A DNA stretch of 64,000 nt from Antedon mediterranea (Eukaryota > Echinodermata > Crinoidea > Comatulida > Antedonidae): NCBI RefSeq assembly GCF_964355755.1, contig NC_092676.1:22116288-22180287 (forward strand), given 5' to 3'. The notes below the pieces were generated by a model. It worked only from the letters and a program-made list of their open reading frames with translations. It was not told the DNA's origin and did not search any database. The first letter of the stretch is position 1; the number at the start of each line of letters is the position of its first letter. Below are positions 220 to 54,905 of the stretch, one piece after another. Made by a program: the position numbers and the translations under genes.

Positions 220-291
220 GTACTTGTCTTATAATCAAATAAGTACATTGTCAGCCAATGCATTTGTTGGTTTGACAGCATTGGAAGAACT
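220..291 (+). CDS. LRR cassette exon 1
   Basis: 72 nt; AG acceptor at 218-219 after a T-rich tract, GTAAGT donor from 292. Residues at positions 2,4,5,23,24 are Y,S,Y,E,E; it also carries Ser12 and Val17, shared with cassette 5. Confidence 0.85.
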
Positions 292-3200
292 GTAAGTGTA
301 TTGCTTTTTTACATATTTACAAGTTTGTCTTTATTTACTAATTATATTACACATTAATAACAATTATTATTTTTATAGGTTAAAAATAGAACTTTAAAAA
401 CAGAATTTTAATATAATTTTTTCAGGTTAATTATAAGGAGTCTTATTTTTTCTCAAATAGTATTTATTATTAGTATATTAAATTATATTTTAAATTATTA
501 TCTTGTCCATGCTTGCAATCACTGAATTATTGTTTAGTAATTTTGTATGAGAATGAAAATGTAAAGATTGTATTATTTTATCATTAAATTCAAGTGTAAG
601 AGTTTTTATCTATGTTATACTTGCAATCTATTAATTAATTGTTGTCTGTGTATGAAAGTTAGAATGTTTAAATTATCTTAATTTACCATTCAGTATATAT
701 TGACATCATTTTAAGTTCAATAGTTATACCCATACAGTATAAAGTATAATGTAGTATTACTAATGTAAATAATTTAAACATTTGAGGATTCAAACAGAAA
801 GACAGAATTATTGATATTGTAATTACTCCGTGTGCTTATTCTGTGCATTCTTTTTCTATTGGAGGCACTTGAATGGTAATCAAATAAGTACATTGCCAGC
901 CAATGCATTTGCTGGTTTGACAGCATTGAAATATCTGTAAGTGTATTGCTTTGTTTATGTATATTGTCACAAAATGTATTTATGAATTTGCTTTTCCTTC
1001 ATCCAATCTACATGGTAGATGGATGAAGATATTGTTTTTAACCACCTGACTATGTGGCGTAGGTTTTTTTTTTATTATAATCTATATATTATACATTGTT
1101 GTTGTTTATATATAATTTGTTATTGAGTTAGGGAGAATTACTTTTTTTTTCCGAAATAAAAGATGAATGAATGAATGAATATTAATTAATATTTCAATAG
1201 GTTAAAATTAGAAAGTTAAAACTACGTGTGAATTCATCCAGCATAAATAAATTACGTTATTCATTTTTGTCAGAAACAGTATTAACAATTGAAAATTATT
1301 ACAGTATTATTATTGTGTTAATTCATATTTCTATAGGATAAAAAATAGGACTTTAAAAACAGGTGTAAATTAATCCAGTAAATGACTGAATTATGATATT
1401 ACTTCGATATTAACAATTAAGGAGTTTTATTTTTTTTAATAATTTATATTAATAATATTAAATAATTGTGAAACTAATATCTCTTTCAAACTTTCCATTA
1501 CTTAATTAATTGTAGCAATTTTGTATGAGAAATAAAATGTTAAAATTATCTTAATTTAACATAGTATATTATTATGTTGACATTTGAGGAAACAGAGAGA
1601 CACAATTGATATTGTAATTACTCCATGCTTATTCTGTGCATTCTTTTTCTATTTGAGGTCCTTGTATGGTAATCAAATAAGTACATTGCCAGCCAATACA
1701 TTTGCTAATTTGACAGCATTGGAAACTCTGTAAGTGTATTGCTTTTTTACATATTTACAAGTTTGTCTTTATTTACTAATTATATTACACATTAATAATT
1801 AATAACAATTATTATTTTTATAGGTTAAAAATAGAACTTTAAAAACAGAATTTTAATATTATTTTTTCAGGTTAATTATAAGGAGTCTTATTTTTTTTCA
1901 AATAGTATTTATTATTAGTATATTAAATTATATTTTAAACTATTATCGTGTCCATGCTTGCAAACACTTAATTATTGCTTAGTAATTTTGTATGAGAATG
2001 AAAATGTAAAACCTGCCCAGTGGGCACAGAACATAATTTCAACGTTGAATCAACGTTGAAATATAGTTTATTTGTTGAAATCATGTTGTCAGCGTTTTTC
2101 AAATGTTGAATCAACGTTGAAATAACATTTTTTCCCTAACTATTTTTTTTACGTTTAGTAATAAACATTGAATCAACGTTGAAATAACATTTTCTTTTTA
2201 ACTAGTAATTTATGTTAATTAATAAATGTTGGTTTAACGTTGAAATAACATTGTCTTTCTAACAAATGTTTTACGTTAATTTATCAATGTTGATCCAACG
2301 TTGAAATAACATTGTTTTTAAAACAAATGTTTTACGTTAATTTATAAATGTTGATTCAACGTTGAAATAACATTGTATTTTTAACTAGAAATTTACGTTA
2401 ATTTATCAATGTTGATCCAACGTTAAAATAACATTGTCCTTCTAACTAGTAATTTACGTTAATTTATCAATGTTGATTTAACGTTGAAATAACATTGTCT
2501 TTCTAACTAGTAATTTACGTTAATTTGTCAATGTTGATCCAACGTTGAAATAACATTGTATTTTTAACTAGAAATTTACGTTAATTTATCAATGTTGATC
2601 CAACGTTAAAATCACATTGTATTTTTAACTCGAAATTTACGTTAATTTATCAATGTTGATCCAAAGTTGAAATAACATTGTATTTTTAACTAGTAATTTA
2701 CGTTAATTTATCAATGTTGATCCAACGTTGAAATAACATTGTATTTTTAACTAGTAATTTACGTTAATTTATCAATGTTGATCCAACGTTGAAATAACAA
2801 TGTATTTTAAACTAGAAATTTACGTTAATTTATTAATGTTGATCCAACGTTGAAATAACATTGTATTTTTAACTAGAAATTTACGTTACTTTATGAATGT
2901 TAATCCAACGTTGAAATAACATTGTCTTTTTAACTAGTAATTTAAGTTAATTTATCATTGTTGATCCAACGTTGAAATAACATTGTCTTTCTAACTAGTA
3001 ATTTACGTTAATTTATCAATGTTGATCCAACGTTAAAATCACATAGTATTTTTAACTAGAAATTTACGTTAATTTATCAATGTTGATCCAACGTTGAAAT
3101 AACATTGTATTTTTAACTAGTAATTTACGTTAATTTATCAATGTTGATCCAACGTTAAAATCACATAGTATTTTTAACTAGAAATTTACGTTAATTTATC

Positions 3201-6200
3201 AATGTTGATCCAACGTTGAAATAACATTGTATTTTAACTAGTAATTTACGTTAATTTATCAATGTTGATCCAACCTTGAAATAACATTGTATTTTTAATT
3301 AATAATTTACGTTAATTTATCAATGTTGATCCAACGTTGAAATAACATTGTCTTTTTAACTAGTAATTTAAGTTAATTTATCATTGTTGATCCAACGTTG
3401 AAATAACATTGTCTTTCTAACTAGTAATTTACGTTAATTTATCAATGTTGATCCAACGTTAAAATCACATAGTATTTTTAACTAGAAATTTACGTTAATT
3501 TATCAATGTTGATCCAACGTTGAAATAACATTGTATTTTTAACTAGTAATTTACGTTAATTTATCAATGTTGATCCAACGTTAAAATCACATAGTATTTT
3601 TAACTAGAAATTTACGTTAATTTATCAATGTTGATCCAACGTTGAAATAACATTGTATTTTAACTAGTAATTTACGTTAATTTATCAATGTTGATCCAAC
3701 CTTGAAATAACATTGTATTTTTAATTAATAATTTACGTTAATTTATCAATGTTGATCCAACGTTGAAATAACATTGTATTTTTAACTAGAAATTTACGTG
3801 AATTTATTAATGTTGATCCAACGTTGAAATAACATTGTATTTTTAACTAGAAATTTACGTTAATTTATTAATGTTGATCCAACGTTGAAATAACATTGTC
3901 TTTCTAACTAGTAATTTACGTTGATTTATCAATGTTGATACAACGTTGAAATAACATTGTCTTTATATCTAGAAATTTACGTTAATTTATCAATGTTGAT
4001 CCAACGTTGAAATAACATTGTATTTTTAACAAGAAATTTACATTAATTTATCAATGTTGATCCAACGTTGCAATAACATTGTATTTTTAACTAGAAATTT
4101 ACGTTAATTTATCAATGTTGATCCAACGTTGAAATAACATTGTCTTTCTAACTAGTAATTTACGTTGATTTATCAATGTTGATCCAACGTTGAAATAACA
4201 TTGTATTTCTAACTAGTAATTTTTTTCAAACAGTTATTATTTTTGTTTTTCAATGTTATTCCAACGTTATTTTAACGTTGAAATCCAGTTGTCATTTTCA
4301 AATGACATGTTTTCAACGTTGAAAAACTCTTGAAATTATGTTGTTTTTTCAAACAATTATTATTTTTTTTTCAATGTTAATTAAACGTTAAATTAAAGAT
4401 AAATTCTATTTAATACTTTGGTTAAAATGACATGTTTTTAACGTTTAATATTAAATAATTGTTTAAGTGCATTGCCATTGATGTTTCAACGTTAAATTAA
4501 CATTAGATTTCAGTTGGCGGTTTATTTTATCATCCTTTATTGTAAAACAAATGATTATTGGTTATTTAGGAATTTTAGATTGGCAAATTGTCTCTGTATA
4601 ATACAAAAATGTTCTAAGAAGTTGTTGAAAATTGAATGATCCTTTCATGCAAGATCAAATTTCATAAGATACGTGCTTGTCATTGGTTAGTTTCGTTTTG
4701 ATAAAATTTTGAAACTGGTGTCAGTAATTTCAGTTACTTCGACATAGGCTAGGCCTACAGTAGTAGTGGTGTGTAGAAAAAAAAGGCTCATCATTGAAAT
4801 TGTCAAATAAGTATGTTTTGAGGTAGGAAAACAATCTTTTTTATTTGTAATCTACTAATTTATAAGCTTTGAGCTTGACTATTTTACCCTTATCAAACAA
4901 TAGCTAGCCTCTAGTCTAGGCCACACATGCATAGCTAGGCTATAGCCTGGTAGGCTAGGCCTATATAGGCTAGGCTAGTAGGCTAGGCAGGCTGCCAAAC
5001 TGATGAACTGAATTCACTCACTAGGCCTAGTGGAAGCATTTAGTATTATGCATGTCAAGTGCAAACATTTGCCTTGCCAAGGATAACTACAGTTCTGTAC
5101 TTATTATGGTTATAAAATGGTATGTATTAGGCCTAGGCTAGGCCTTTTAGTTCAATAATACTTTCTTTATTTATCCAAAAGTATACATAAATATAACATT
5201 ATAATATTTAATTAGTTGGCCTAGCCTAGCTAGCTTTCTGCTAGGCTGTCTACAGTAGCTGCTAATGCTATTATTAGTGTTAATAGTATACAAACACATG
5301 TTGCTTGCCTAGCCTAGGACGGCTATTTGTTAAACTTACTCGCTTTCTTTATTTCAGATTGTAGGCCTAGCTAAGGCCCTTAGGCCTATGCCTAGCTAGA
5401 GTACAAAATAATGAAGTACATGTAGGCCTATAATCTTTTCTATGTGAATCAAACGAGAAAAATCTAATGGATGATCAATATTTTTATATACAAAAGGTTG
5501 GTATTTATAGTTCTTAACTTTAATATTGAATTGAATAAATATTACGCCGTGGTTAGGATTCCGGCACCGCAACTCAACTTCCCATCGTTAGGGAATCCGA
5601 CACGCTATTGCGCATGCCCAGAGCGAAGTAATTATAGCTTGCACTAGTGCCACAGACCGCGCACCACATTACCCGAGAGTCGGAGTGTTAACTAGGGATG
5701 TACTGTGTAGCCAAAGATATCTTTGCTGTGGCCTAGTTAGTCGTCGCGCGGGGGAGAGAGCGATGGATGAAACTTGGCCTAGGCCATACATGAATTAATA
5801 ATTATGCCACGCGTTAAAATAATTATTATGATATTGATAAGAATCAGCTTGCATATTTCAAGAAATGTACGAAAATGAATAGCGTAGCGTTGCGACACCG
5901 ACTTCTCCCGAATAGGTCTGTTTTATTTTTTCACATCCGCACGGCGGCTGCTGTCAACAAATCAACTTGTATACGATTGCATGATGTTATGTACAGTATA
6001 AATGCGTTAAATGAAATCTTTTATTTTGTACTTGAAAAATCATAAAAATTAAAACTAGTCATGCAATTATAATTCATAAATATATAAAGTTTATATATGA
6101 ATGAAGCAAATTTAATTACGAAATAAATAGGCCCAATGGTCACATCTAGCTGGTAGGCCTACTAGTATTAGTAGGCATGTAGGCCGGCTAGTTCGCCGTG

Positions 6201-9200
6201 GCGCAGCTATTAAAATGATCCATCGCTGTAAAGCTTGGTTCCCACTAGAACGTAACGCAAGGACGTAAACGCAACGCAAGCGTTTTAACCAATGACAAGC
6301 GAAGTTATAGACAGTTAGCAATCACAAGCGAATAAGCCATCGCTTGTGATTGGTCAATTTACTTGCGTTGCGTTACGTCCTTGTGTTGCGTCGCTAGTGG
6401 GAACCACGCTTTGGTCTGTTGTAGACAAAAATAGAGTCGCCGAATACCTCGCTCTGGGCATGCGAAATAGCGTGTCGGATTCCCTAACGCTGGGCAGTTG
6501 AGTTTCGTTGCCGGAATCCTAACCACGGCGTAAATATTAATACAGTGTTGCAATATTATTTACATAAATTGAATTGATTGCATAGTTTACAAGTAAGTGT
6601 GAAATGATGTTCTGAATTGAATTTTTGTTTATGTACAGTATGATTTTTGAACAATGTGTTAAAGATATAATTGAACTGAACAATTTTTTTTTAAATGTTT
6701 TGTTGAATATGCCGTCACTATAGAGTTGTTCACTTTGACCAAAAATTAGATTTTAAAAAATGCATTTGTACCTTAAAAGGGGGACAATTTAAACAAACAA
6801 TTGGTTTTTGGTTAAATGTACTGTTTATTTTGTATTTTTGTTAAGTGAAATCTTTATTGTTTTTGTTTATTTTCTACGGCAAGTGAATATCTAAATTGTT
6901 AAAATTGCAAAATGGCAAGGTATTCAAAGTATGATTGTATTAATCTTCATTGTTCATGTTTTTTGGGGACAATAAATCTTTCAACAATTAATTTTTTACT
7001 GTATTATTTTTGTTTAAAACTACAGTAACGTGATTGAATTTGTTTCAGGTTTGGAAAAATAATATTGCCACACTTTTGGAAAGCATAGGACAATGTCAAC
7101 ACAGGAATCGAGGCAACTGTTTATTGACTAATCGGAACAATGCAATTACAGTATTGTGTTATTACCATCATTTGGACTTCTGCAACATTAGCACAAGGCA
7201 CCTGTGACGTGTGTTGTATTTATTGTGTTTTACTGTAATCAGCCAATATTTATAGTTATTCAATCATGTTAGTTGGCAAACATATTACAAACTGGTTATT
7301 AGTATATTTTTTATACTTAACATTGGTACCTGAGAACTGTCAGTGAGGATGTACATTATTTGATTGTTGCTTGGATTTTGCCTGATGATTTGATAACACC
7401 TGATTAAATGTTATTTTATGTTTTTATAGAAATTAAAGATTAGTAAGATATACAGTATTTATAAAATGTCTCTATTGATGGATTCTGCGATGTAACAGTA
7501 ACTTTACTACTAACTACTTTAAAACCGTTGATTCAAATTGGATATAGTAATTCAACAAATCAAATTTCAACGTTAAATCTATGTTTAAATTTACGTTGAT
7601 GCAAATTTTCATTTCAACTTAATTATTACGTTGTTTCAACGTTAATAATGTCAACATTGAATCAACATTGATAATTTCAACGTAGACATTTTTACGTTGT
7701 TTCAACGTTGATAATCTATGTTGAATCAACGTTGACATTTTTGTTGAGGCAAACTTTCATTTTCAACGTTATTTTAACGTTACCTATTTTAACGTTGTTT
7801 CAACGTTGATAATTTCTATGTTGATTCAACGTTGACATTTACGTTGAGGCAAACTTTCATTTTCAACCATTTTTTCAACGTTATTTCAACGTTACCTATT
7901 TTAACGTTGTTTCAACGTTGATAATTTCTATGTTGATTCAACGTTGACATTTAAGTTGAGGCAAACTTTCATTTTCAACCATTTTTTCAACGTTATTTCA
8001 ACGTTACTTATTTTAACGTTGTTTCAACGTTGATAGTTTCTATGTTGATTCAACGTTGACATTTACGTTGAGGCAAACTTTCATTTTCAACCATTTTTTC
8101 AACGTTATTTCAACGTTACTTATTATAACGTTGTTTCAACGTTGATAATTTCTATGTTGATTCAACGTTGACATTTACGTTGAGGCAAACTTTCATTTTC
8201 AACCACTTTTTCAACGTTATTTCAACGTTTGCAGATAACGTTGAATTAACGTTAATTCAACCAATTTTTGCCCACTGGGTGTATTATTTTACCATGAAAT
8301 TCAAGTGTAAGAGTTTTTATCTATGTTATACTTGCAATCTATTAATTAATTGTTGTCTGTTTATGAAAGTTAGAATGTTTAAATTATCTTGATTTACCAT
8401 TCAGTATATATTGACATCATTTTAAGTTCAATAGTTATACCCATACAGTATAAAGTATAATGTAGTATTACTAATGTAAATAATTTAAACATTTGAGGAT
8501 TCAAACAGAAAGACAGAATTATTGATATTGTAATTACTCCGTGTGCTTATTCTGTGCATTCTTTTTCTATTTGAGGTACTTGTCTGATAATCAAATAAGT
8601 ACATTGCCAGCCAATGCATTTGCTGGTTTGACAGCATTGAAAAGATTGTAAGTGTATTGCTTTGTTTATGTATATTGTCACAAAATGTATTTATGAATTT
8701 GCTTTTCCTTCATCCAAGCTACATGGTAGATGGATGAAGATATTGTTTTTAACCACGTGACTATGTGGCTTAGGTTTTTTTTTCTATATATTATATATTG
8801 TTGTTGTTTATATATAATTTGTTATTGAGCTATGGAGAATTACTTTTTTTTTCGAAATAAAAGATGAATGAATGAATGAATATTGATTAATATTTCAATA
8901 GGTTAAAATTAGAACGTTAAAACCAGTCTGAATTCATCCAGCATAAATAAATTACGCTATTCACTTTTGTCAGAAACAGTATTAACAATTGAAAATTATT
9001 ACAGTATTATTATTGTGTTAATTCATATTTAAAAACAGGTGTAAATTAATCCAGTAAATGACTGAATTATGATATTACTTCGATATTAACAATTAAGGAG
9101 TTTTATTTTTTTTAATAATTTGTATTAATAATATTAAATAATTGTGAAACTAATATCTCTTTCAAACTTTCCATTACTTAATTAATTGTAGCAATTTTGT

Positions 9201-12200
9201 ATGAGAAATAAAATGTTAAAATTATCTTAATTTAAAGATGTATTGTCCCTTTGACTAATTACAAAAAAATAAAAAATAACACATTTCGAAAAAAAAGTGG
9301 GTCATTTTGAACTATCATAATAGTTATTAACTATTACCAAAAATTTGTTGAAAAAAAAATCATTTAACTGAAATACAGACGTTTTTTTGTTAAAAAAATA
9401 ACTTTGACTTCCATTCAAAGTTTTCGATCAAAACATATCCCATAATGAAACGTGCTTGTTTGGCTACTCTGTATATGCATAATCATAAAACTTCCTCACG
9501 ATCTGTGTGAAAATACCTTCTCAACAGTGACGAGTTGTAAACAATCCTAATTAGCATATGCATAATGCATACTCGTAGATTGAAATCTTTGTTTACTTTC
9601 GCTCGCGACGATTTTCCAGACGAAATGTAATCAAACTAATTTACCTGTTAATTATGTAAAATTGTTGCTTTTGGCTCGAATTTTCGACTTAAAGTGAACA
9701 ACTTTAATATTATTTTGATATGGCCAATTTAGATTTAGAATATTTTGACCTTCATTTTTTGTGTTTCAAGGGACAATACATCTTTAACATAGTATATAAT
9801 TATGTTGACATCATTCAAGTAATAGAGTTGATACTAAACCCATGCAGTATAACTATAATGTTACTAATGTAGATAATTTATACATTTGAGGAAACAGAGA
9901 GACACAAATAATTGATATTGTAATTACTCCATGCTTATTCTGTGCATTCTTTTTCTATTTGAGGTACTTGTATGATAATCAAATAAGTACATTGTCAGCC
10001 AATGCATTTGTTGGTTTGACAGCATTGGAAGAACTGTAAGTGTATTGCTTTTTTACATATTTACAAGTTTGTCTTTATTTACTAATTATATTACACATTA
10101 ATAACAATTATTATTTTTATAGGTTAAAAATAGAACTTTAAAAACAGAATTTTAATATTATTTTTTCAGGTTAATTATAAGGAGTCTTATTTTTTCTCAA
10201 ATAGTATTTATTATTAGTATATTAAATTATATTTTAAACTATTATCTTGTCCATGCTTGCAATCACTGAATTATTGTTTAGTAATTTTGTATGAGAATGA
10301 AAATGTAAAACCTGTATTATTTTACCATGAAATTCAAGTTTAAGAGTTATTATCTATGTTATACTTGCAATCTATTAATTAATTGTTGTCTGTGTATGAA
10401 AGTTAGAATGTTTAAATTATCTTGATTTACCATTCAGTATATATTGACATCATTTTAAGTTCAATAGTTATACCCATACAGTATAAAGTATAATGTAGTA
10501 TTACTAATGTAAATAATTTAAACATTTGAGGATTCAAACAGAAAGACAAAATAATTTATATTGTAATTACTCCGTGTGCTTATTCTGTGCATTCTTTTTC
10601 TATTTGAGGTACTTGTTTTATAATCAAATAAGTACATTGCCAGCCAATGCATTTGCTGGTTTGACAGCATTGAAAAGACTGTAAGTGTATTGCTTTGTTT
10701 ATGTATATTGTCACAAAATGTATTTATATATTGTTGTTGTTTATGTATAATTTGTTATTGAGCTATGGAGAATTACTTTTTTTTTCGGAAATAAAAGATG
10801 AATGAATGAATGAATATTAATTAATATTTCAATAGGTTAAAATTAGAACGTTAAAACCAGTCTGAATTCATCCAGCATAAATAATTACGCTATTCATTTT
10901 TGTCAGAAACAGTATTAACAATTGAAAATTATTACAGTATTATTATTGTGTTAATTCATATTTCTATAGGATAAAAAATAGGACTCTAAAAACAGGTGTA
11001 AATTAATCCAGTAAATGACTGAATTATGATATTACTTCGATATTAACAATTAAGGAGTTTTATTTTTTTTTAATAATTTGTATTAATAATATTAAATAAT
11101 TGTGAAACTAATATCTCTTTCAAACTTTCAATTACTTAATTAATTGTAGCAATTTTGTATGAGAAATAAAATGTTAAAATTATCTTAATTTAACATAGTA
11201 TATAATTATGTTGACATCATTCAAGTAATAGAGTTGATACTAAACCCATGCAGTATAACTATAATGTTACTAATGTAGATAATTTATACATTTGAGGAAA
11301 CAGAGAGACACAAATAATTGATATTGTAATTACTCCATGCTTATTCTGTGCATTCTTTTTCTATTTGAGGTACTTGTCTGATAATCAAATAAGTACATTG
11401 TCAGCCAATGCATTTGCTAATTTGACAGCATTGGAAGAACTGTAAGTGTATTGCTTTTTTACATATTTACAAGTTTGTCTTTATTTACTAATTATATTAC
11501 ACATTAATAACAATTATTATTTTTATAGGTTAAAAATAGAACTTTAAAAACAGAATTTTAATATTATTTTTTCAGGTTAATTATAAGGAGTCTTATTTTT
11601 TCTCAAATAGTATTTATTATTAGTATATTAAATTACATTTTAAACTATTATCTTGTCCATGCTTGCAATCACTTAATTATTGTTTAGTAATTTTGTATGA
11701 GAATGAAAATGTAAAACCTGTATTATTTTACCATGAAATTCAAGTGTAAGAGTTTTTATCTATGTTATACTTGCAATCTATTAATTAATTGTTGTCTGTG
11801 TATGAAAGTTAGAATGTTTAAATTATCTTGATTTACCATTCAGTATATATTGACATCATTTTAAGTTCAATAGTTATACCCATACAGTATAAAGTATAAT
11901 GTAGTATTACTAATGTAAATAATTTAAACATTTGAGGATTCAAACAGAAAGACAGAATTATTGATATTGTAATTACTCCATGTGCTTATTCTGTGCATTC
12001 TTTTTCTATTTGAGGTCCTTGTCTGATAATCAAATAAGTACATTGCCAGCCAATGCATTTGCTGGTTTGACAGCATTGAAAAGACTGTAAGTGTATTGCT
12101 TTGTTTATGTATATTGTCACAAAATGTATTTATATATTGTTGTTGTTTATGTATAATTTGTTATTGAGCTATGGAGAATTACTTTTTTTTTTTCGAAATA

Positions 12201-15200
12201 AAAGATGAATGAATATTAATTAATATTTTAAAAGGTTAAAATTAGAACTTTCAAACCAGTGTGAATTCATCCAGCATAAATAAATTACGCTATTCATTTT
12301 TTCAGATAAAATTACTAACAATTTAAAATTATTACAGGAATATTATTGTGTTAATTCATTAATTGATATTTCCATAGGATAACAAATAGAATTTTAAAAA
12401 CAAGTGTAAATTCATCTAGCATGAATGAATTTTAATATTATTTTTTTTTTTTCAGATTAATTATAAGGAATCTTATTTTTTTTTAATAGTATTTTTGTTA
12501 TTAGTAATATTAAATAATATTTTAAACTATTATCTTGTTCATGCATGCAATCTCTTAATTATTGTTTAGTGATTTTGTATGAGAATGAAAATATAATGAC
12601 TGTATTATTTTACCATGTGATTCAAGTTTACTCGCAATCTATTAATTAATATTGTTGTAGTATGTGTATGCAACTTAGAATGTTCAAATTATCTATCATT
12701 TAAGTACAAGAGTTGATACTAAACCCCATGCAGTATAACTATAATGTTACTAATGTAGATAATTTATACATTTGACGAAACAGAGAGACACAAATAATTG
12801 ATATTGTAATTACTCCATGCTTATGCTGTGCATTCTTTTTCTATTTGAGGTACTTGTCTGATAATCAAATAAGTACATTGCCAGCCAATACATTTGCTAA
12901 TTTGACAGCATTGGAAGAACTGTAAGTGTATTGCTTTTTTACATATTTACAAGTTTGTCTTATTTACACAATAATAACAATTATTATTTTTATAGGTTAA
13001 AAATAGAACTTTAAAAACAGAATTTTAATATAATTTTTTCAGGTTAATTATAAGGAATCTTATTTTTTTTCAAATAGTATTTATTATTAGTATATTAAAT
13101 TATATTTTAAACTATTATCTTGTTCATGCATGCAATCACTGAATTATTGTTTAGTAATTTTGTATGAGAATGAAAATGTAAAGATTGTATTATTTTACTA
13201 TGATTTTCAAGTGTAAGAGTTTTTATCTATTTTATACTTGCAATCTATTAATTAATTGTTGTCTGTGTATGAAAGTTAGAATGTTTAAATTATCTTGATT
13301 TACCATTCAGTATATATTGACATCATTTTAAGTTCAATAGTTATACCCATACAGTATAAAGTATAATGTAGTATTACTAATGTAAATAATTTAAACAATT
13401 GAGGAAACAGAGAGACACAAATAATTGATATTGTAATTACTCCGTGTGCTTACTCTGTGCATTCTTTTTCTATTAAAGGTACTTGTATGATAATCAAATA
13501 AGTACATTGCCAGCCAATGCATTTGCTGGTTTGACAGCATTGAAATGGCTGTAAGTGTATTGCTTTGTTTATGTATATTTACAATTTTATCTTAATTTAC
13601 TTTTATATTACATTAATATAAATTAATATTTTAAAAGGTTAAAATTAGAACTTTCAAACCAGTGTGAATTCATCCAGCATAAATAAATTACGCTTTTCAT
13701 TTTGTCGGATACAAGTATTAACAATTTTAATATATTACAGGAATATTATTATGTTAAATCATTAATTGATATTTCCATAGGATAAAAAATAGAATTTTAA
13801 AAACAAGTGTAAATTCATCTAGCATGAATGAATTTTAATATTTGTTTTTCAGATTAATTATAAGAAATCTTATTTTTTTTTAATAGTATTTATTATTAGT
13901 AATAGGCCTATTAAATAATATTTTAAACTATTATCTTGTTCATTCTTACAAATCTCTTAATTATTGTTTAGTAATTTTGTATGAGAATGAAAATTTAATG
14001 ACTGTATTATTCTACTATGATTTTCAAGTGTAAGAGTTTTTATCTATGTTATACTTGCAATCTATTAATTAATTGTTGTCTGTGTATGAAAGTTAGAATG
14101 TTTAAATTATCTTGATTTACCATTCAGTATATTGACATCATTTTAAGTTCAATAGTTATACCCATACAGTATAAAGTATAATGTAGTATTACTAATGTAA
14201 ATAATTTAAACAATTGAGGAAACAGAAAGACAGAAATTATTGATATTGTATTTACTCCATGTGCTTACTCTGTGCATTCTTTTTCTATTGGAGGTACTTG
14301 GATGGTAATCAAATAAGTACATTGCCAGCCAATACATTTGCTGGTTTGACAGCATTGAAATATCTGTAAGTGTATTGCTTTGTTTATGTATATTGTCACA
14401 AAATGTATTTATGAATTTGCTTTTCCTTCATCCAATCTACATGGTAGATGGATGAAGATATTGTTTTTAATCACGTGACTATGTGGCGTAGGTTTTTTTA
14501 AATATATCTATATATATATATTGTTGTTGTTTATATATAATTTGTTATTGAGCTATGGAGAATTACTTCTTTTTCCGGAATAAAAGATGAATGAATGAAT
14601 GAATATTGATTAATATTGCAATAGGTTAAAATTAGAACTTTAAAACCAGTGTGAATTCATCCAGCATTAATAAATTACGCTATTCATTTTTGTCAGAAAC
14701 AGTATTAACAATTGAAAATTATTACAGTATTGTTATTGTGTTAATTCATATTTCCATAGAATAAAAAATAGGACTTTAAAAACAGGTGTACATTAATCCA
14801 GTAAATGACTGAATTATGATATTACTTCGATATTAACAATTAAGGAGTTTTATTTTTTTAAATAATTTGTATTAATAATATTAAATAATTATGAAACTAA
14901 TATCTCTTTCAAACTTTCAATTACTTAATTAATTGTAGCAATGTTGTATGAGAAATAAAATGTTAAAATTATCTTAATTTAACATAGTATATATGTTGAC
15001 ATCATTCAAGTAATAAAGTTGACACTAAACCCATGCAGTATAACTATAATGTTACTAATGTAGATAATTTATACATTTGAGGAAACAGAGAGACACAAAC
15101 AATTGATATTGTAATTACTTCATGCTTATTCTGTGCATTCTTTTTCTATTTGAGGTACTTGTATGAAAATCAAATAACTACATTGCCAGCCAATACATTT

Positions 15201-18200
15201 GCTAATTTGACAACATTGGAAGAACTGTAAGTGTATTGCTTTTTTACATATTTACAAGTTTGTCTTTATTTACTAATTATATTACACATTAATAACAATT
15301 ATTATTTTTATAGGTTAAAAATAGAACTTTAAAAACAGAATTTTTAATATTATTTTTTCAGGTTAATTATAAGGAGTCTTATTTTTTTTCAAATAGTATT
15401 TATTATTAGTATATTAAATTATATTTTAAACTATTATCTTGTCCATGCTTGAAATCACTTAATTATTGTTTAGTAGTTTTGTATGAGAATGAAAATGTAA
15501 AGATTGTATTATTTTACCATGAAATTCAAGTGTAAGAGTTTTTATCTATGTTATACTTGCAATCTATTAATTAATTGTTGTCTGTGTATGAAAGTTAGAA
15601 TGTTTAAATTATCTTGATTTACCATTCAGTATATATTGACATCATTTTAAGTTCAATAGTTATACCCATACAGTATAAAGTATAATGTAGTATTACTAAT
15701 GTAAATAATTTAAACATTTGAGGAAACAGAAAGACACAAATAATTGATATTGTAATTACTCCATGTGCTTACTCTGTGCATTCTTTTTCTATTAAAGGTA
15801 CTTGTATGATAATCAAATAAGTACATTGCCAGCCAATGCATTTGCTGGTTTGACAGCATTGAAATGGCTGTAAGTGTATTTCTTTGTTTATGTATATTTA
15901 CAATTTTATCTTAATTTACTTTTATATTACATTAATATAAATTAATATTTCAAAAGGTTAAAATTAGAACTTTCAAACCAGTGTGAATTCATCCAGCATA
16001 AATAAATTAGGCTTTTCATTTTGTCAGATACAAGTATTAAAAATGTTATAATATTACAATAATATTATTGTGTTAATTCATTAATTGATATTTCCATAGG
16101 ATAAAAAATAGATTTTTAAAAACAAGAATAAATTCATCTAGCATGAATGAATTTTAATATTTGTTTTTCAGATTAATTATAAGGAATCTTATTTTTTTTA
16201 AATAGTATTTATTATTAGTAATATTAAATAATATTTTAAACTATTATCTTGTTCATGCATGCAATCTCTTAATTATTGTTTAGTGATTTTGTATGAGAAT
16301 GAAAATTTAATGACTGTATTATTTTACCATGTGATTCTAGTTTACTTGCAATCTATTAATTAATATTGTTGTAGTATGTGTATGCAAATTAGAATGTTCA
16401 CATTATCTATCATTTAAGTACAAGAGTTGATACTAAACCCCATGCAGTATAACTATAATATTACTAATGTAGATAATTTATACATTTGACGAAACAGAGA
16501 GACACAAATAATTGATATTGTAATTACTCCATGCTTATGCTGTGCATTCTTTTTCTATTGGAGGTACTTGAATGATAATCAAATAAGTACATTGCCAGCC
16601 AATGCATTTGCTGGTTTGACAGCATTGATACGCCTGTAAGTGTATTGCTTTGTCTACTTATATTTACAATTTTATCTTAATTTACTATTTTATTATGCTA
16701 ATATTAATTAATTTTTCAATAGGTTAAAATTAGGACTTTCAAACCAGTGTGAATTCATCCAGCATAAATAAATTAGGCTTTTCATTTTGTCTGATACAAG
16801 TATTAACAATTTAAAAATATTGCATGTGTTTTTGTGTTAATTCATTAATTAATATTTCTATAGGATAAAAAAATACTAGAATTTAAAACAAAAGTGTAAA
16901 TTCATCCAGCATGAATGAATTTTAATTTTTTTTTTTCAGATTAATTATAAGGAATCTTAATTTTTTTAAATAGTATTTATTATTAGTAATATTAAATAAT
17001 ATTTTATTAAACTAATATCTTGTTCATGCTTGCAATCACTTAATTATTGTGTTTTATAATAATTGTGTATGAGAATGAAATTGTAAGACCTGTATTAGTT
17101 TACAATGAGATTCAAGAGTTTATCTATGTTATACTTGCAATATATTAATTAATTGTTGTCTGTGTATGAAAGTTAGAATGTTTAAATTATCTTGATTTAC
17201 CATTTAGTATATATTGACATCATTTAAGTAGGCCTACAATAGCTGAAACTATAATACGCATGCAGTATAACTATGATGTAGTTACTAATGTAAATAATCT
17301 AAAAATTTGAGGAAACAGAGACACAAATAATTGATTATTGTCTGCTTATTCTGTGCATTCTTTTTTTATTTGAGGTCCTTGTCTGATAATCAAATAAGTA
17401 CATTGCCAGCCAATGCATTTGGTGATTTGACAGCATTGGAAAAACTGTGTATTGTTTTGTCTATTTATATTTACAATTTTATCTTAGTTTACTGTTATAT
17501 TACATTAATATTAATTAATATTTCAATAGGTTAAAATTAGAAATTTAGACCATACCAGTCGTTGTCTGCGTTAGGGATGGTCGTATTCCTAGTAGCTTTC
17601 TTAGGTAAGTTTTCGGATATATCGCATTTCACGGGAGCTTTGAAAGAAACTTAGTTTTTTTTATAATAAATCTGAAAATAACAGTCTTGAAACTTCCAAA
17701 ATGGTGTCAAAAGCAAGAAAAAATAGTAAACACTATATTCTAGGAATTATTTATAATAAAGTGACGTCACTAATAATTACTTTCAGGTGTTGAAATTAAT
17801 AAATAGTGATATTTCTTGAGTTAATAATCGAAATTCGCTGATACTTGGTAAATAGCTTGTATACGGTGATAGGGTTGCCAGGGCATTTAAAGCTTTCGCC
17901 CAATTTGTTCGTATCGAATATGAACGACCCTGTTTCAATGTGCCCTTGTTTTTTCTTGTTTCAAAGTGCTCCGGTCTCCCCTACTGAAATACGCACAGTA
18001 AACAAAAATGATACAATTAATATATTTTATGACACAATGTCCTGTGTTTTTTCATTATTTAGTCATTTTATGACTTAACATTTTTATTATTAATAATATT
18101 TTATCAGTATTGTTAGATCCATATTATTTGATGATTAATTTACTAGCATTACTATATTATATATATATATATATGTTTATTAAGCATATACTTATTGTTG

Positions 18201-21200
18201 TACCGGGATCCGGGTACATTGAAACACTTAAGTAGTTAATTTAATTAGCCTCCTCAACGAAAATTACCAAAGTTTTTTTTTTCTTTTTGACTTTAGTAAT
18301 ACTGAATGACACCCATTACTTGCTTTTGACACAATTTTGGAAGTTTCAAGACTAATATTTTCAGATTTATTATAAAAAAACTAAATTTCTTTCAAAGCTC
18401 CCGTGAAATGCGATATATCCGAAAACTTACCTAAGAAAGCTACTAGGAATACGACCATCCCTAACGCAGACAACGACTGGTATGGTCGACGACGCGTCTT
18501 TAATCAAAGCAGAGAAATCTGCAACAATTATAACGGTGATAGAGGGTGTGTAAAGACAAACTGCAATGTAGCTCACATTTGTTTGTTATGTAAAGGCCAC
18601 TCACAGTCAGCGTACAGGTGGTCAAAAAACGGACAAGGGCCTCAAGTGATAGGGGCCACTGCAAAACGTTAAACGAAACCGCTAACTTTAAAACCAAAGC
18701 TGGTTTGGTGTTGGTTTTGTTGGCAAACCAAAATCCACCTTTATTATTCAATTATCCATCCAATTCTCAACTTTAGTTCTGTTATTTTTATTTCTATTTC
18801 GAAAACTCAGTCTACGCGCATTCAGCGTCTGCATAACCGTTTTTTACGCTACATCAGCCACAACCAGAATCCTGATTTTCATTTCCATGTCCAATCTGCT
18901 GAGTCCCGTAGAACCTTTTTTGATCTTGTTTTTTTTTGTATAAATGTCTTAATTCTTTATTTGACTGTAACTTAGTTAGTCATTTTTATCTTAGAGTCCC
19001 TAGTCATCGTCTTAAAAGAAATCCTACTTTTCATATTCCTGTAGAGTAAATGTTTTTAAAAATGGTTTTATTAGTAGATTAAGTCAAACTTATAATTCTT
19101 TTACTTTAAGAAACCCTCAGTTAGATATCTTTATTAATAATTTCCGTAAGTTTCGCAACATTGTTAGTAGTTTAGTTTAATATTTTGTTTTTGTATGTGT
19201 ACGTGTTTGTCTGTGTTCCCTCCTGTAAGTGGTGAACCATGAGTTCACTGTTGGTTGGGAAATGAAATAAATAAATAAACTACGACACAACAATAACTAC
19301 CTCTATAAATATTGAACAGCTACATAAGCATATGGCACTGTGTCCAAACACGTATCTAAAGAACTAGTGTTAGACGGGTTGGTATATGGTTTTTCAAATT
19401 TCAAATCACTTCCAGAGCAATCGATTGAATGTAAGAACTTAAAATCGTCTACAAGGTAACCCGATACGGTTGCTGAATTGATAAAAACAGAAGTTACCAA
19501 GGGATATTTATTAGACCCATAGAACGTTATTCCATACAAACAATATCGCATAAACCCTATCGGCATCGCAGAAGGCAAATATTCCCACAAAAAGAGACTA
19601 ATCTTTGACTTGTCCGCAACCCGAGCTTGAACGAACTTATAGATATAGATCAGTATTCACTACAGTACGTCAAAATAGACGACGCTATTAGAATTATAAA
19701 AAACCAGGGTCGTGGAGCATTATTGATAAAAACAGATATAACCGACGCATTCAAAATAATACCCATCCACCCAGGACTCAGAGGCTACCATGGAATTAAA
19801 TGGAACGAACAATATTACTTCTTTAAACAATTTTTTTTTTTGCTGTCGTTCAAGTCCAAAAACATTTGACACACTATTTATTATTTGGACAACATCATAC
19901 AATACATTATTGTTTTGATTAACCCTCTACTCGTCTCTAATGATGATCTGGGTTCTTTAACTTGCATATAAATTTAAAATGAATAAACTGGACCTACGGT
20001 TTATAGTCCTTATCCGTCCGAGAAGACTTGCCGATATTGTTGGCTCTTTAGGTATGGTAAACTGTGCCATTGCCTTAATCGCCCGTCCATTTGACTCGCT
20101 TCAATAAAAACATCAGCATAAGAGTTGACACTATACCCATGTTTTATTAAATGTTTTAAGCCACAGATAATAATAAATCATGAAAATTAATTTTTACAAC
20201 TCAGTTATGGAATTAAAGTTTTATAAATGATTCTGATTTTGTACGGCATATACCAGAAAAATAAATAGTTTGTCTTTCAACAGGAGGTTAGAAAACAATA
20301 CTATAACTACCATTGAACCAGATGCATTCTCTTCTTTTGCTTCATCACTTTCACATTTGTAAGTTAGCCCTGTAATTTATATACAGTGTGAATTTTATTA
20401 TTTGGTTTTCTTTTTCATGCTTTGATGAGATTAACTAAACAATTTAATAAATAATTTACAGTATAGCTTTGCGTCATCTGACGTGATCATACTTTATACT
20501 AAGTAGGCCTACATTTGAGAATACTTGAGGACTTCTCAGGATACGGTGGGCATTGAAGCGACGACTTCCAAAAAATCACAATATTGGCATTCAATACCTC
20601 TTATAAACAAAGATTTACGATTTAATTGTTAATATCTGTAGTTGTCAAAATCTACTTATTGTTACTTCTGTACACAAAAAAAAGTATGTTGAAATATGTG
20701 AACTGAATATTAAAGAACATCGGGTAGAATATTACTGAGTAAATAAATAATTAATTAAATTTACCTACTACAACCATGATCACCTGTTTTTTAAACCACT
20801 TTGGAAGTAACAAAAATCTGAAACCTTACCTTCTAACCATTATTATACTGGTATTTTCTATCTTTCGTTTTAAAAATCACTTTGCACGTAAAATAAAGAA
20901 CTTTACAAAAATGATCACTTAATACTAACCGTAAAACTTATTATTTTTATTTTAGGTATCTCATAGGCAACAGTTTACGGGTTTACAGTGATAAGACGTT
21001 TAAAGAATTGGCAGTCTTAAGAGTATTGTAAGTAATGATAGATCTGCATTTGACAATTTGCTATTATCAAACTACTAGTTTTTAGTCGCGTGCAAACGCG
21101 ACTCTTACAGCTCATTATGTCGGTGAGTCAGTCGGTAAACACTAACTCAAATGTGAGCACGCGACTGCAGCCATGTATATGGCCTTGTTAGTTACAGGGT

Positions 21201-28677: not shown

Positions 28678-31369
28678 TTATCTTGTTGATTGAGCACTTA
28701 GTTTTCTCGACGCTTGTGAAGTAACAGATGATGCCCTAGATTTCACCCTGGATCTTAATCTGTTGGACCGACTGCTGCCTGGCGGTTCCTGAGGTGGAGA
28801 TGGGGCAGTTGTGTTTCTACCGGAATTCACTTGCTGCTCTTTTCCATCGTCTGACTGGGCTATAGTCTCAGTCGTTGCTACATCACCCGGGTCATCGGTG
28901 TCTGGTGTTTTGGGTTTAATATCGGGTGTTAGCGGTTTATCGTCAGATTTATTTGTATCATCTTCTGTAGTTCCGTCTGGTTTCGTTGGCTGTTCATTCT
29001 GTTTTCCAGAACCGGTTTCTTCCATTTTTAGATTTTTGTCCGACATTTGTTTATTCTCATTTTTTTCTTTAATTGGTGTCCCAGGTTTACTTTCTGTTGA
29101 CACTGAATTTTTCTCTAGTACATTTTCTGTATTTGTATTGGGTGTTGTCGGCTTTTCATTTTCAATTGTATCCTCCCTAGCAGGAGACATCTTATCTTCT
29201 TCAGTGTCTTCTAAACTTTTTGTCTCTTCAGTGTTGTCTGGCTTCGTTTCATCTTGTGCATTATTACTATATGGTGTTGATGGCTTGCTATTCACATGGT
29301 CGTTATTTTCTTGGTCTTCTTTTGTCTGTGATTCCGAGGGCGTTGGTTTATCGTCTGATTCGCCAGGTTCAGTGTCTAGTTGATCGCTAACCACTGCTGT
29401 TATTTTCTTATCTCCGTTATCCATCGGTATGTTTTCCATCTGTTTAGCTTCTGATGCAATTGCATTCTAATGAAGAAAGTAACAGTATCATGGTAGTTTT
29501 TATAATAACATGTTATGTCTGTAGTATTTTTATAGGATTATCGTATTATTTATCAGAGGCCGATCTAGGGGTACCGATGGGGTCTCTGCTGCGTAAGAGT
29601 AAGCTAGAGATACCAGATAAAGCTGCATAATACTTATTCACAGTAGGCCTACTTGTTTATGGTTTACAGTAGATGGTCATTTCAACGTGAATATTGTTTA
29701 TATTTTCATGGCACTAACTCTAACAAGTGCGTGGATTTTTTATGTTAACAAATAATAACAAAATAGAGCGAGAATTGATTTATTAGTACATCAATGGTGA
29801 CATATCCAGGATTTTGAGGTACTCTGTGCTGATATTAACCTAATTTTAAATATTTTTTCTTTAATCTTGAGATTTTTTTATGCTAGAAGTGTAGGCCTAA
29901 TTGATACCTTGTTCACGTTCTCAGAGGTAGGTCTATCTGTTCTCTTCATGAGATGTTGTAGTTCATTCAAAGACTCTTGCACTGCTTGTAGTTGCTGTAA
30001 TACCGTCACAAAATGATCTTTCATGGACTGTAGTAGACAAAATAATGTAACATATAATAGATACAGGTACATATACAGATGATCTTAGACTGAGTTATTG
30101 GTTTAAATCCTATCTACTGCAAGGTCAGTTCTCAACTTCTCCTAAAGTGCGGTATGTTTAAGTATACGGTTTTGATATGTTTTTTCTCTGAACGGATTTA
30201 CACCTATTTGGACAGTTTCAATTCGCTACCGTTATAACCACCATTACTAATAATACTATCACCGTTATGCAGTAGATAAGTGATAGATTACTGTTTCTAT
30301 TTACTCAAAGTCCTCATGAGAAACAAACTCCATAACTTACACCAGCTAGTTTCTACATTATGATTACTCTTTAGATCATTCATATAATGTAGAATAAGTA
30401 AATTGTTATGCATTAATTACTTCTTGTATACCTATTCATGCATGAAGTATATACTTATTAATATTTTTTTAATTAGGCTACCTATCTTACTTACCGATTT
30501 AACGACGGTTGAGAAGAACTCGTATGTTCGCTCATCTGGTGGTAATTTCAGAGTATTTTTCTTTTTGTTATCTTCCTATCAATCAAGATATACATAACAC
30601 CATCAGACAAGTAAAATACAAGTATTGTAAACAAATCTGAAGCCTAGAATTCATTAATAATAAAACATATACACATTTTTACAAAGAATAAAAATAATAT
30701 TATACCCTAAATTTAATTGTATTTATGAAATATTATACATTATTCACCTTAAACACTTCGGTGCGAATCGAAGAAAATCCGTAATAGCAGCAGCTAATAT
30801 AAACTATACTTATACAAAATAAAATATGTGAAATAACTTTCATTAAGAATAAATACCGGTTCTTTGTCTTTTTCTTTGTTTTCTTTTACTTGTTCTTCCT
30901 TCTCTTTAATTTGATTTTTCTTTTCCTTTTCTGCACCGTCTTTGTCCCCCTTTTCTACCACATCTTTGTCACCCTTTTCTACCACATCTTTGTCACCATT
31001 TTCTGCCACATTTGTATCTCCTTTTTCCATCACATCTTGTTCGTATTTTTCTACCACATCTGTATCACCTTTTTCTGTCACATCTTTATCACTCTTTTCA
31101 ACCACATGTTCGTCATTATTCTTTTCTTCTGCAACTTTCTCTTCCTTTACAGACTTTTCTTCATCAGTCTTTTCTGAAATTTCCTCTTTATTACTGTCAG
31201 TTACATTTTCGTTGGTACTCTCTGATATACCTTCTGCTTTCTCATTACCAACATCTCCTTGCACTGGTTCTATTGTGGTAGTTTCTTCTTTATTCTTATT
31301 TCCTTCTTCTTTGGAATTCGCTTCCTCCACTTCTCTAGCATTTTCCGGCTCTGAATTATTCGTAGACAT
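28678..31369 (-). CDS. Acidic, repeat-rich coiled-coil protein, unrecognised (four exons, 500 aa)
   Basis: Exons on the - strand: 31369-30857 (171 codons), 30575-30495 (27), 30027-29908 (40), 29466-28678 (262 plus stop). All junctions are phase 0. The start is ATG at 31369 (MSTNNSEPENAREVEE). Exon 1 is Glu/Lys-rich with an eight-residue repeat of the form VVEKGDKD. Exon 2 reads KLPPDERTYEFFSTVVKS. Exon 3 (KDHFVTVLQQLQAVQESLNE, LQHLMKR) is the predicted coiled coil. Exon 4 is a long acidic disordered region with TP/SP sites (KPTTPNT, KPLTPD, KPKTPD), ending in a basic Ser/Arg tail (NRLRSRVKSRASS). The tail is unlike the rest and could bind RNA, DNA or microtubules (inference). An upstream MATR-like ATG (31,404) with a GTGAGT donor does not join in frame. 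Confidence 0.7.
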
Positions 31370-31409
31370 ATTTTTGATAAACAAAACTCACCTCGTAGCC
31401 ATTTTATAA

Positions 31410-33145: not shown

Positions 33146-34500
33146 ATATTCATTCATTCATTCAATCTTTTATTTCGCAAACTCTGGTCCATAGAAAGTA
33201 AATTACATATAAATGAAATAAATAAAATAAACAAAATTACTACTACTCATCTCAGGATGGCATTCCATCTGGAGAGCATCTTCGACTTAACTAAGACATT
33301 GCTTATAATCGTTGAGATTAAAATATTTTTGCTTGCATTAAGTCTACACATCAGGCCATATATTGATATTCTTAACAATTCATAAAAAGAGGGAATTCTA
33401 CATTCCGTAAACATGAGGCTGGCACTGCAATGTCGAGGCCTTTGAAACAACATTCTTAAACCATTATTGTAGCATACCTGGAGAGATCGCAAGGTACCTT
33501 GATTATAGTTGCACCATAATGTAGCACAATACATATTTACACAATATGTTCTAAATAAAACACATTTCACATTGATAGAACACATACTAAATTTTCTGAC
33601 CAAGGAGTTGGCTCGGATACACAAAGATCTGTATTGCCGCTTTATATCAAACTCATCACATAAATCCAAGGATATAACATGACCAAGATATGTGGTTGAG
33701 TCCACATATTCTAAGCTTTTGCCATTAATGGTAATAATAGGTTTCAATTGAATCCTCCGTGACTTAGGACAGATTATCATACAAGATGATTTCTTAGCAT
33801 TGTAAACAATATCATTTTTGGCCGCAAAGCATTCAGAAATTTTAATTAGATGTTGCCACCCTGATGCAGAAGGTGATATAAGCACCATATCATCTGCATA
33901 CGATAGGTTGTTAAATTTAATATAATTTAACTCACACCCTTCTTTGCTGTTGCTAAGCTTAATGATAAGATCATTTATATATATATTATACAGATGGGGA
34001 GACATTACTCCTTCCTGTCTAACACCATTTGATGGAAGGGCTCCGAAAAGGATTTGCCCCATTTAACAATGAAACACTGCTGAATATTATACCAAGCTTT
34101 TAGTACTCTAACAATTGGACATGGAGTATCATTAATAATTAATTTCTTTAAAAGTGTCCAATGGTTCACCCTATCAAAGGCTTTAGAAGCATCGAGGTAG
34201 CATACATAGACAGGGCTACCATTACGATAGTAGTAATCAGCTATTTGTTTAAAAACAAAAATACAAGTTTCTGTACCATGGTTAGATTTAAAGGCAAATT
34301 GTCTGTCATCAGAAGTTATAGTATCACCAGATAATTCGATAAGAACATGTTCTAAAACCTTAGATATTACACAGGCTAGGGCAATCAGTCTATAATTATC
34401 CTTGCTTGTAATGTCACCTGACTTAGATTTTACGATAGGTACAAGAATGACATCAGTCATACCTCTTGGGACCGTACCGTATTTTAAACAAAGGTTAAAA
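33145..34500 (-). pseudogene. 5'-truncated LINE with frameshifted reverse transcriptase
   Basis: Two overlapping frames (34,500-34,005 and 34,062-33,247) together cover RT. The first has DNYRLIALACVISKVLEHV and YLDASKAFDRVNHWTLLKKL. The second has GVRQEGVMSPHLYNIYINDL, the catalytic SYADDMVL block, and TYLGHVIS. The frame breaks near 34,030-34,060, just before the GVRQ block. The 3' end is GCGAAATAAAAGATTGAATG with (GAAT)n at 33,150. The 5' side stops at a (TTG)n run near 34,500, so endonuclease and ORF1 are absent. Non-LTR type; clade not decided. Confidence 0.85.
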
Positions 34501-34559
34501 CAACAACAACAACAACAATATAACGACAAGGAACATATTATAAACATTGTATACATTTA

Positions 34560-53400: not shown

Positions 53401-54871
53401 CTCAAATTGCGGTTAAAATTTGGAACATTGATAAAAAGTTGTTTAAAAAGTTTCATTTAAATATCCCATTTACACTATTCAACATATCAGAAGTTTTATG
53501 GCCCAGTCACAGAAATTGGCTTCCTATGCGCAGGAACATTAGAATTAGAAATGAGATTTATTTGTATAAAATAAAAACTCATATTTTGTTTAGTGTTTTG
53601 GCAAGACCAGTCAAATAGGTATTTTAACCAAACAAATATATGAATTTATTGTGGAATCTTTGCTTATACTGTAGGTTGGATTAGACGGTGAGAATCATAT
53701 ATGTGTAGGCAAATTGAACTTAGTAGATTTAGCAGGCAGTGAACGACAGGGAAAGACAGGTGCAACAGTAAGTATTGCTAAGGGATCATATAAAAATCAT
53801 CTACTGCAGTTACTGCAGAAACAATTTTGTTCCTTTATTATTTAAAAAAATTGAGCTGCCATTGGAAAAAACAGTGTGTATGATAACCTCCAAAATGTGC
53901 TATATATTGCATAAATAGTTATAGAGTACATATACAGTAATCAAAATGTAGTTAATTGCAGTAACTGATGTAGAATATTTTTCACATGATCCCTAAATAT
54001 ATTAAAACTGTTAATCGACTGTTTTTATTCTGACCAATATACAAAAAAATGCTAAAAATAACAATAATAAGTAATAATGTAATCAGTGTTACTATTAGTC
54101 CAGCTGCTTTTTTGCATAATTTAATTGTTTTTTTTAATCATAAATATACAGTGATCATTTATATTTGTAAGTAGGTTATTTTTTTAATACTAATTCATAA
54201 TTCTCAAATAAAATATTGGTTTCTCTTGATTCATGCATTTTTTGAATAATTCATATTTTTACTTTATTATGTGGATACTGTAATTCTTATTTGGTTTCTG
54301 GATTATAAAAAAACATATGTATGGTTTTGGTGAACTTTCAATATTATAAAAATATTACCAATTGAATTGGTAATTTTTATTTAATTTGGTATAATATAAT
54401 TTCTTTTTTCTTAACTATTTCTAAACAAATCAGAGAATGGAAATAGGCTTTAAGAGATCGGGGCCTATCAAAATTATCCCCTTAGTGGTGTGTGCTGAAT
54501 AGGAGTTACCTGTAGTGTTAAAACATTGTTGTCCCTTGTTCGTTTCATGGACAAGTGTCTGAATGAATATGAGTATCCTACAGGAGGAATTTCACTCTAT
54601 ATAATAGTGCTGTCTTAAAATCGACCTACTAACTAAGAAATCTGATCTTTAATCTTTAATTTGTGTTATTTTATAAACTGTATACTTGTATTAACAGTAA
54701 ATAATATCTTTTCAGTCATAATTCGGTCACTTCATTTGTATTTCAGTATTTCAGTATTTATTGGTACTCACTTTCGAATCAGTGGCACACACCTTTCGGT
54801 GGTGCGTCCATACAAATATAAACAACAACATATAAAAGGAAAATGATGATAAAACTTACATAATTAACTAA

Positions 54872-54905
<34 letters not shown>

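Follow-up and report, generated by a model that had tools for sequence, protein, structure and literature searches.

We found that a 64,000-nt stretch of contig NC_092676.1 (positions 22,116,288 to 22,180,287 of the forward strand; the window in what follows) carries a tandem array of 15 short exons, here called cassettes, each of which encodes one leucine-rich repeat (LRR). With a probability of about 0.55, the array is best read as part of one constitutively spliced LRR recognition protein, whose repeats would have been remodelled over germline generations through unequal exchange and conversion between cassettes, with selection for diverse contact residues.

The array was delimited with a 79-nt probe (a single cassette plus its donor, taken from the window), which was compared to both strands of the whole 64 kb with up to 32 mismatches allowed. 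The scan gave 15 matches with 0-13 mismatches, all on the plus strand and spanning positions 220-17446, while the best match in three mononucleotide-shuffled windows had 40-41 mismatches. A sixteenth cassette was not found within the window on either strand at this threshold. Each of the 15 exons is exactly 72 nt long, is preceded by an AG acceptor and encodes one 24-residue LRR. A codon is split CT/G at both exon ends, which corresponds to phase 2; the phase-2 frame is open in all 15 exons, and the remaining two frames contain stops in all 15. The donor is GTAAGT in 14 exons, the exception being the final exon E15 with GTGTAT, and the splice sites are near-uniform across the cassettes, with no pattern of strong and weak sites. 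Concatenated in order, the exons encode 360 amino acids without a stop and match Pfam LRR_8 with an E value of 5.8e-153. The initial annotation had described fifteen modular, frame-compatible cassettes of 72 nt in phase 2 with one LRR each, and the matching phases, open frames and acceptors agree with this description in every exon. The number fifteen, however, holds for the window and not for the total: bases 1-219 are array intron, with 99% identity to 11151-11369 (the intron before E07), so that the array extends past the left edge of the window and 15 cassettes are a minimum. The features are listed in Table 1.

Table 1. Cassettes of the LRR array and associated features in the window; A and B denote the cassette classes.
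Feature	Position	Strand	Basis or remark
LRR exon E01 (B)	220..291	+	probe scan, exon anatomy
LRR exon E02 (A)	865..936	+	probe scan, exon anatomy
LRR exon E03 (B)	1658..1729	+	probe scan, exon anatomy
6264-bp insertion, E03-E04 intron	2016..8279		11-bp terminal inverted repeats without mismatches, CCCAGTGGGCA; target site apparently duplicated as TG
LRR exon E04 (A)	8576..8647	+	probe scan, exon anatomy
548-bp insertion resembling a miniature inverted-repeat transposable element (MITE), E04-E05 intron	9236..9783		ends AGATGTATTGTCCC inverted; TTAA-like target duplication
LRR exon E05 (B)	9964..10035	+	probe scan, exon anatomy
LRR exon E06 (A)	10609..10680	+	probe scan, exon anatomy
LRR exon E07 (B)	11370..11441	+	probe scan, exon anatomy
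LRR exon E08 (A)	12015..12086	+	probe scan, exon anatomy
LRR exon E09 (B)	12850..12921	+	probe scan, exon anatomy
LRR exon E10 (A)	13479..13550	+	probe scan, exon anatomy
LRR exon E11 (A)	14294..14365	+	probe scan, exon anatomy
LRR exon E12 (B)	15155..15226	+	probe scan, exon anatomy
LRR exon E13 (A), same sequence as E10	15798..15869	+	probe scan, exon anatomy, BLAST
LRR exon E14, A-type exon with B-type upstream intron	16564..16635	+	exon anatomy, distance comparison
LRR exon E15, the final one recognised, with GTGTAT in place of the GTAAGT donor	17375..17446	+	probe scan, exon anatomy
Possible terminal-exon tail (speculative)	17447..17534	+	if E15 is unspliced: TAA after 29 hydrophobic residues, of which the junction Leu is the first
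Element bordering the array on the right	17548..18487		173-bp inverted ends, 96.5% identical

The introns fall into two classes, A and B, which mostly alternate along the array (B A B A B A B A B A A B A, then E14 and E15). Over the 215 nt upstream of each exon, with E03 (deleted), E14 (chimeric) and E15 (divergent) left out, divergence was 1-6% within class A, 1-15% within class B, where the upstream stretch of E05 contains part of an insertion, and 20-31% between A and B. The introns had earlier been called nearly identical, which is true within a class but not between the classes. The spacing between E05 and E07 equals that between E06 and E08 (1406 nt), which therefore points to duplication of a two-exon unit.

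The x positions of the LRR motif LxxLxLxxN are exposed on the concave beta-sheet and correspond here to residues 23, 24, 2, 4 and 5 of the 24-residue unit. The exon boundary cuts this motif as LxxL/xLxxN, with residues 23-24 of one exon and residues 2, 4 and 5 of the next forming one strand. Because the boundary falls inside the contact strand, each new exon junction would create a new strand. Of the 15 nucleotide sites in the five concave codons, 12 are variable, compared to 8 of 57 in the other codons (Fisher p = 2.5e-6). Mean residue entropy was 1.64 bits at the concave positions and 0.23 bits at the others, and in an exact permutation over all 42504 sets of five residues only 2 were as extreme. 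Diversity is thus concentrated at concave positions, as it is in the arrays of brown algae considered below; this signal had escaped the initial annotation. This concentration alone is no proof of selection for diversity, since weaker constraint at exposed sites predicts the same.

We also considered divergence of the 105 exon pairs, which are not independent of each other, in bins of flank divergence of 0.012, 0.062, 0.148 and 0.245 (12, 18, 15 and 60 pairs, respectively). Mean concave divergence in these bins was 0.267, 0.289, 0.249 and 0.356, and divergence in the rest of the exon was 0.035, 0.017, 0.060 and 0.047. Concave divergence exceeded flank divergence in 92 of the 105 pairs. In the 12 closest pairs, which again share exons, the flanks show 34 differences in 2716 nt and the exons 72 in 864 nt, 67 of these 72 being nonsynonymous. 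Positive selection for diverse contact residues appears likely, short of proof.

Exchange between cassettes was examined at 36 informative sites in 14 cassettes (E15 excluded). Of 81 pairs formed between three sites near the 5' end of the exon (residues 2 and 5) and flanking sites, 71 were incompatible, while incompatibility was seen in 16 of 162 pairs of upstream and downstream flank sites and likewise in 16 of 162 pairs of 3' exon sites and flanks. A permutation of the pairwise homoplasy index (PHI) type on the informative sites gave p = 0.014. A clearer case than the three-site figure is provided by E14, which on the following distances is a chimera of a B-type upstream intron and an A-type exon. 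Its upstream intron differs from that of E09 (B) at 2 of 150 positions and from those of all seven A cassettes at between 23 and 28 of 144-148. The exon itself is closest to E10 and E13 (A), with 4 differences in 72, and differs from B exons at 8-12 of 72. Downstream, E14 is nearest to E15 (10/96) and to E10 and E13 (13/100), with 16-22 differences in 87-97 to B and 24-40 in 80-97 to the other A cassettes; judged by these numbers, its downstream class is not simple. The unequal exchange between cassettes proposed in the initial annotation is supported, as an apparent germline process, by the 71 conflicts and by the E14 chimera.

According to the reading that we favour, the cassettes would be normal coding exons belonging to a single LRR gene, presumably transcribed and spliced head-to-tail in genomic order into a solenoid with 15 or more repeats. 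The array would have grown by tandem duplication, largely of the two-exon unit (B then A), and the cassettes would then have kept swapping short tracts via unequal crossing-over or gene conversion. Selection would hold the scaffold residues constant and favour difference at the five exposed beta-strand positions. A diverse concave binding face is suggested because the variation sits at concave sites and is independent of intron divergence. Among PDB sequences, IGFALS, LRRC15, LGR4 and TLR13 lead the matches, with LGR5 among the best and the intracellular LRRD1 third in one list, so that similarity to extracellular LRR proteins is evident at the sequence level. Since these nearest solved relatives are mostly extracellular LRR proteins, we infer a secreted or membrane recognition protein. 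Such a protein may act in extracellular recognition, immune or other, and its ligand face would change over germline generations and not within an individual.

Several observations weigh against this reading. When the comparison is restricted to the closest pairs that share no exon, seven in number, the concave sites diverge more than the flanks in six; the two closest, however, show a difference at only 1 of 15 concave sites, and E10/E13 show none. In the 12 closest pairs, divergence of the non-concave exon (0.035) and of the nearest 60 intron nt (0.036) is also higher than that of the 240-nt flank (0.012), and for this reason part of the excess is put down to tract exchange and not to point selection. 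The minimum numbers of synonymous and nonsynonymous changes, 5 and 25, did not deviate significantly from neutrality (p = 0.26, 0.13 and 0.054 at kappa 1, 2 and 4), and we dropped the ratio of nonsynonymous to synonymous rates (dN/dS) as a stand-alone argument for selection. Tests of variable sites in exons and introns in seven overlapping groupings gave uncorrected p values of 8.5e-4, 0.011, 1.0, 1.6e-3, 0.135, 0.93 and 0.041, i.e. below 0.05 in four groupings and with no excess in three. The 71 of 81 figure depends on three sites, at which recurrent mutation under selection could mimic exchange. Finally, no start, signal peptide, caps or anchor was seen within the window, outside of which the 5' part lies.

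One alternative is an ordinary LRR gene in which constraint was merely relaxed, so that exposed positions of recent exon duplicates drift while buried ones stay fixed, and in which there is neither a repertoire nor selection for diversity. In a variant, a single fixed ligand requires an uneven surface, and the repeats specialised once. Exposed LRR positions do vary, and both the non-significant substitution counts and the three groupings without excess are compatible with drift. Drift should, however, track the introns, yet concave divergence reaches 0.267 where the flanks differ by 1.2%, and we regard this explanation as unlikely. The array could also be dead or partly dead, as a 3'-truncated relic, or its cassette number could be distorted by assembly of near-identical repeats; tandem near-copies assemble badly. 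The degraded final donor, the transposon-like element that abuts the array and the loss of array homology beyond it fit with decay. A Pfam scan of downstream open reading frames (ORFs) of at least 45 amino acids (149 of 171 on the plus and 118 of 123 on the minus strand, those within or opposite a long interspersed nuclear element (LINE) being left out) gave no match to LRRCT, transmembrane-receptor, TIR, ROC or COR domains, although shorter exons could escape it. Against decay, all 15 frames are open, all 15 acceptors and 14 of 15 donors are intact, and divergence of the scaffold codons is only 0.017-0.060 where that of the flanks rises to as much as 0.245. We regard a dead or misassembled array as improbable.

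A combinatorial receptor, as envisaged in the initial annotation, would obtain many binding faces from one gene by skipping or choosing cassettes variously at splicing. All cassettes are indeed frame-neutral with matching phases, brown-algal genes of the same design have splice variants with differing LRR combinations according to excerpts of PMC11378527, and skipping of LRR exons is described for human NLRs in excerpts of PMC6642158. However, the strong and near-uniform splice sites in 14 of the 15 cassettes speak against this reading, as does a BLAST comparison in which inverted copies of the array were not found. On balance, splicing as the source of diversity seems improbable to us.

The initial annotation did not know such an array as standard, which holds only in part, since excerpts of the literature describe it for brown-algal ROCO genes with 72-bp exons (PMC11378527) and for Tetrahymena with 90-bp exons (PMC6564038). 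In LRR-ROCO genes of Ectocarpus and Saccharina, the excerpts report shuffled tandem 72-bp phase-2 exons with one LRR each, positive selection at four concave sites and alternative splicing; shuffling LRR exons are also reported there for 15 additional non-ROCO sequences of S. japonica, most of them LRR-only (PMC11378527). The tandem 72-nt exons and the concave variation are shared with the present array. The selected brown-algal sites, however, are 14, 16, 18 and 19 of a 23-residue unit and lie within one exon in that source, while residues 2, 4 and 5 and residues 23 and 24 are separated by the boundary here, and because the LRR register differs, an independent origin can be argued. ROC-COR was not found 3' of the array in the scanned ORFs, and a more distant 3' part is possible; we do not assign the array to the ROCO genes. 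A more far-reaching reading, in which the brown-algal design arose a second time in an animal gene and changes of neighbour in the germline or in RNA yield new beta-strands and orders and thus combinatorial diversity at the junctions, strikes us as doubtful. The Tetrahymena arrays, explained by exon shuffling, resemble the present one in their tandem uniform LRR exons and phase-2 introns and differ in the 90-bp exons, the 30-residue repeat and the thousands of genes (excerpts of PMC6564038).

Among animals, exonic LRR modularity is known from human genes (excerpts of PMC6642158), and LGR/glycoprotein-hormone-receptor genes share the phase-2 LRR introns (excerpts of PMC11378527) and, with LGR4 and LGR5, some of the best PDB matches. 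Unlike in LGR genes, the cassettes here are near-copies with near-identical introns within a class, and no seven-transmembrane region was detected in the scanned ORFs. Clusters of the Dscam type consist of tandem near-copy exons with mutually exclusive choice, whereas head-to-tail joining of the present exons gives a sensible solenoid. A single 24-residue LRR would be an odd product of a design with one cassette per transcript. In the VLR system, an incomplete gene receives its cassettes by somatic copying; here, in contrast, the cassettes are exons, with AG in 15 of 15 and GTAAGT in 14 of 15, and not unspliced donor cassettes. VLRs and amphioxus VLR-like proteins do share the 24-residue LRRs and the binding of antigen by the concave face (excerpts of PMC4731796), and Dscam is mentioned in the excerpts of PMC11378527. 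Among the open-licence papers listed, we noticed no animal gene with this design, which is no proof of absence, and the 31-nt conserved cassette core had no exact match in general genome and viral contig collections, which do not hold animal genomes as such. What is apparently new is not the layout but its occurrence in a probably animal gene and the splitting of each contact strand between two exons. An animal host is likely in view of the CR1-like LINE, the KIF3B-like kinesin and the low G+C of the window, all described below. If animal, the array would provide an independent case of the exon design behind the question of adaptive immunity in brown algae. It also allows asking whether diversity of a binding face stems from germline exchange of LRR exons, from splicing or from both, in a lineage in which transcripts and individuals can be compared.

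At the 3' side, array homology stops at 17547, directly before the element at the right edge, and in the 813 nt beyond this element similarity to the array was not convincing (best E = 0.012). The tail after E15 is a weak candidate for a membrane anchor: if the same 4 nt are omitted, the corresponding introns that follow E10, E13 and E14 also stay open, for 22, 22 and 29 residues, respectively, and the open tail after E15 is thus inherited from AT-rich intron. A poly(A)-like AATAAA is present at 17665, as is often expected in such sequence; G+C is low in the window. Six-frame pattern scans gave no LRRCT match and no plus-strand LRRNT, but these patterns also miss the cassettes, whose motif is split. 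Two minus-strand LRRNT-pattern and six LRR-pattern matches were taken as chance.

Within the array, residues 23-24 of E01-E15 end in E-x in B-type repeats and mostly in K-x in A-type repeats, and charge alternates along much of the concave face. We set aside a salt-bridge ladder for this alternation of EE and K-x, since the pattern follows from the two-exon unit. The 6264-bp insertion, which is missing from the equivalent site of the E05-E06 intron, contains AACGTTG-rich tandem arrays with 61-bp units (2102-4222) and, in a second array, 112-bp units (7674-8229).

Kinesin exons lie at 50153-61412 on the plus strand, the last being nearest to KIF3B (3b6u, E = 7.3e-38). As this is the next plus-strand gene seen, from about 50.2 kb, further 3' exons of the LRR gene would be expected between 17.4 and 50 kb, unless E15 is terminal. 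Two acidic low-complexity ORFs are located on the minus strand, at 28681-29466 (262 amino acids, no Pfam match) and at 30797-31387 (197 amino acids, sub-threshold match only), and a reverse transcriptase at 33250-34556, also on the minus strand, is divided between two overlapping ORFs. Between the kinesin exons, the LINE mentioned above (55343-60322, minus strand), which we take to be a CR1-like element of animal type, carries an intact-looking reverse transcriptase/endonuclease ORF of 1242 amino acids and an ORF of 416 amino acids with GDSL-lipase, PHD-like and zinc-knuckle matches.

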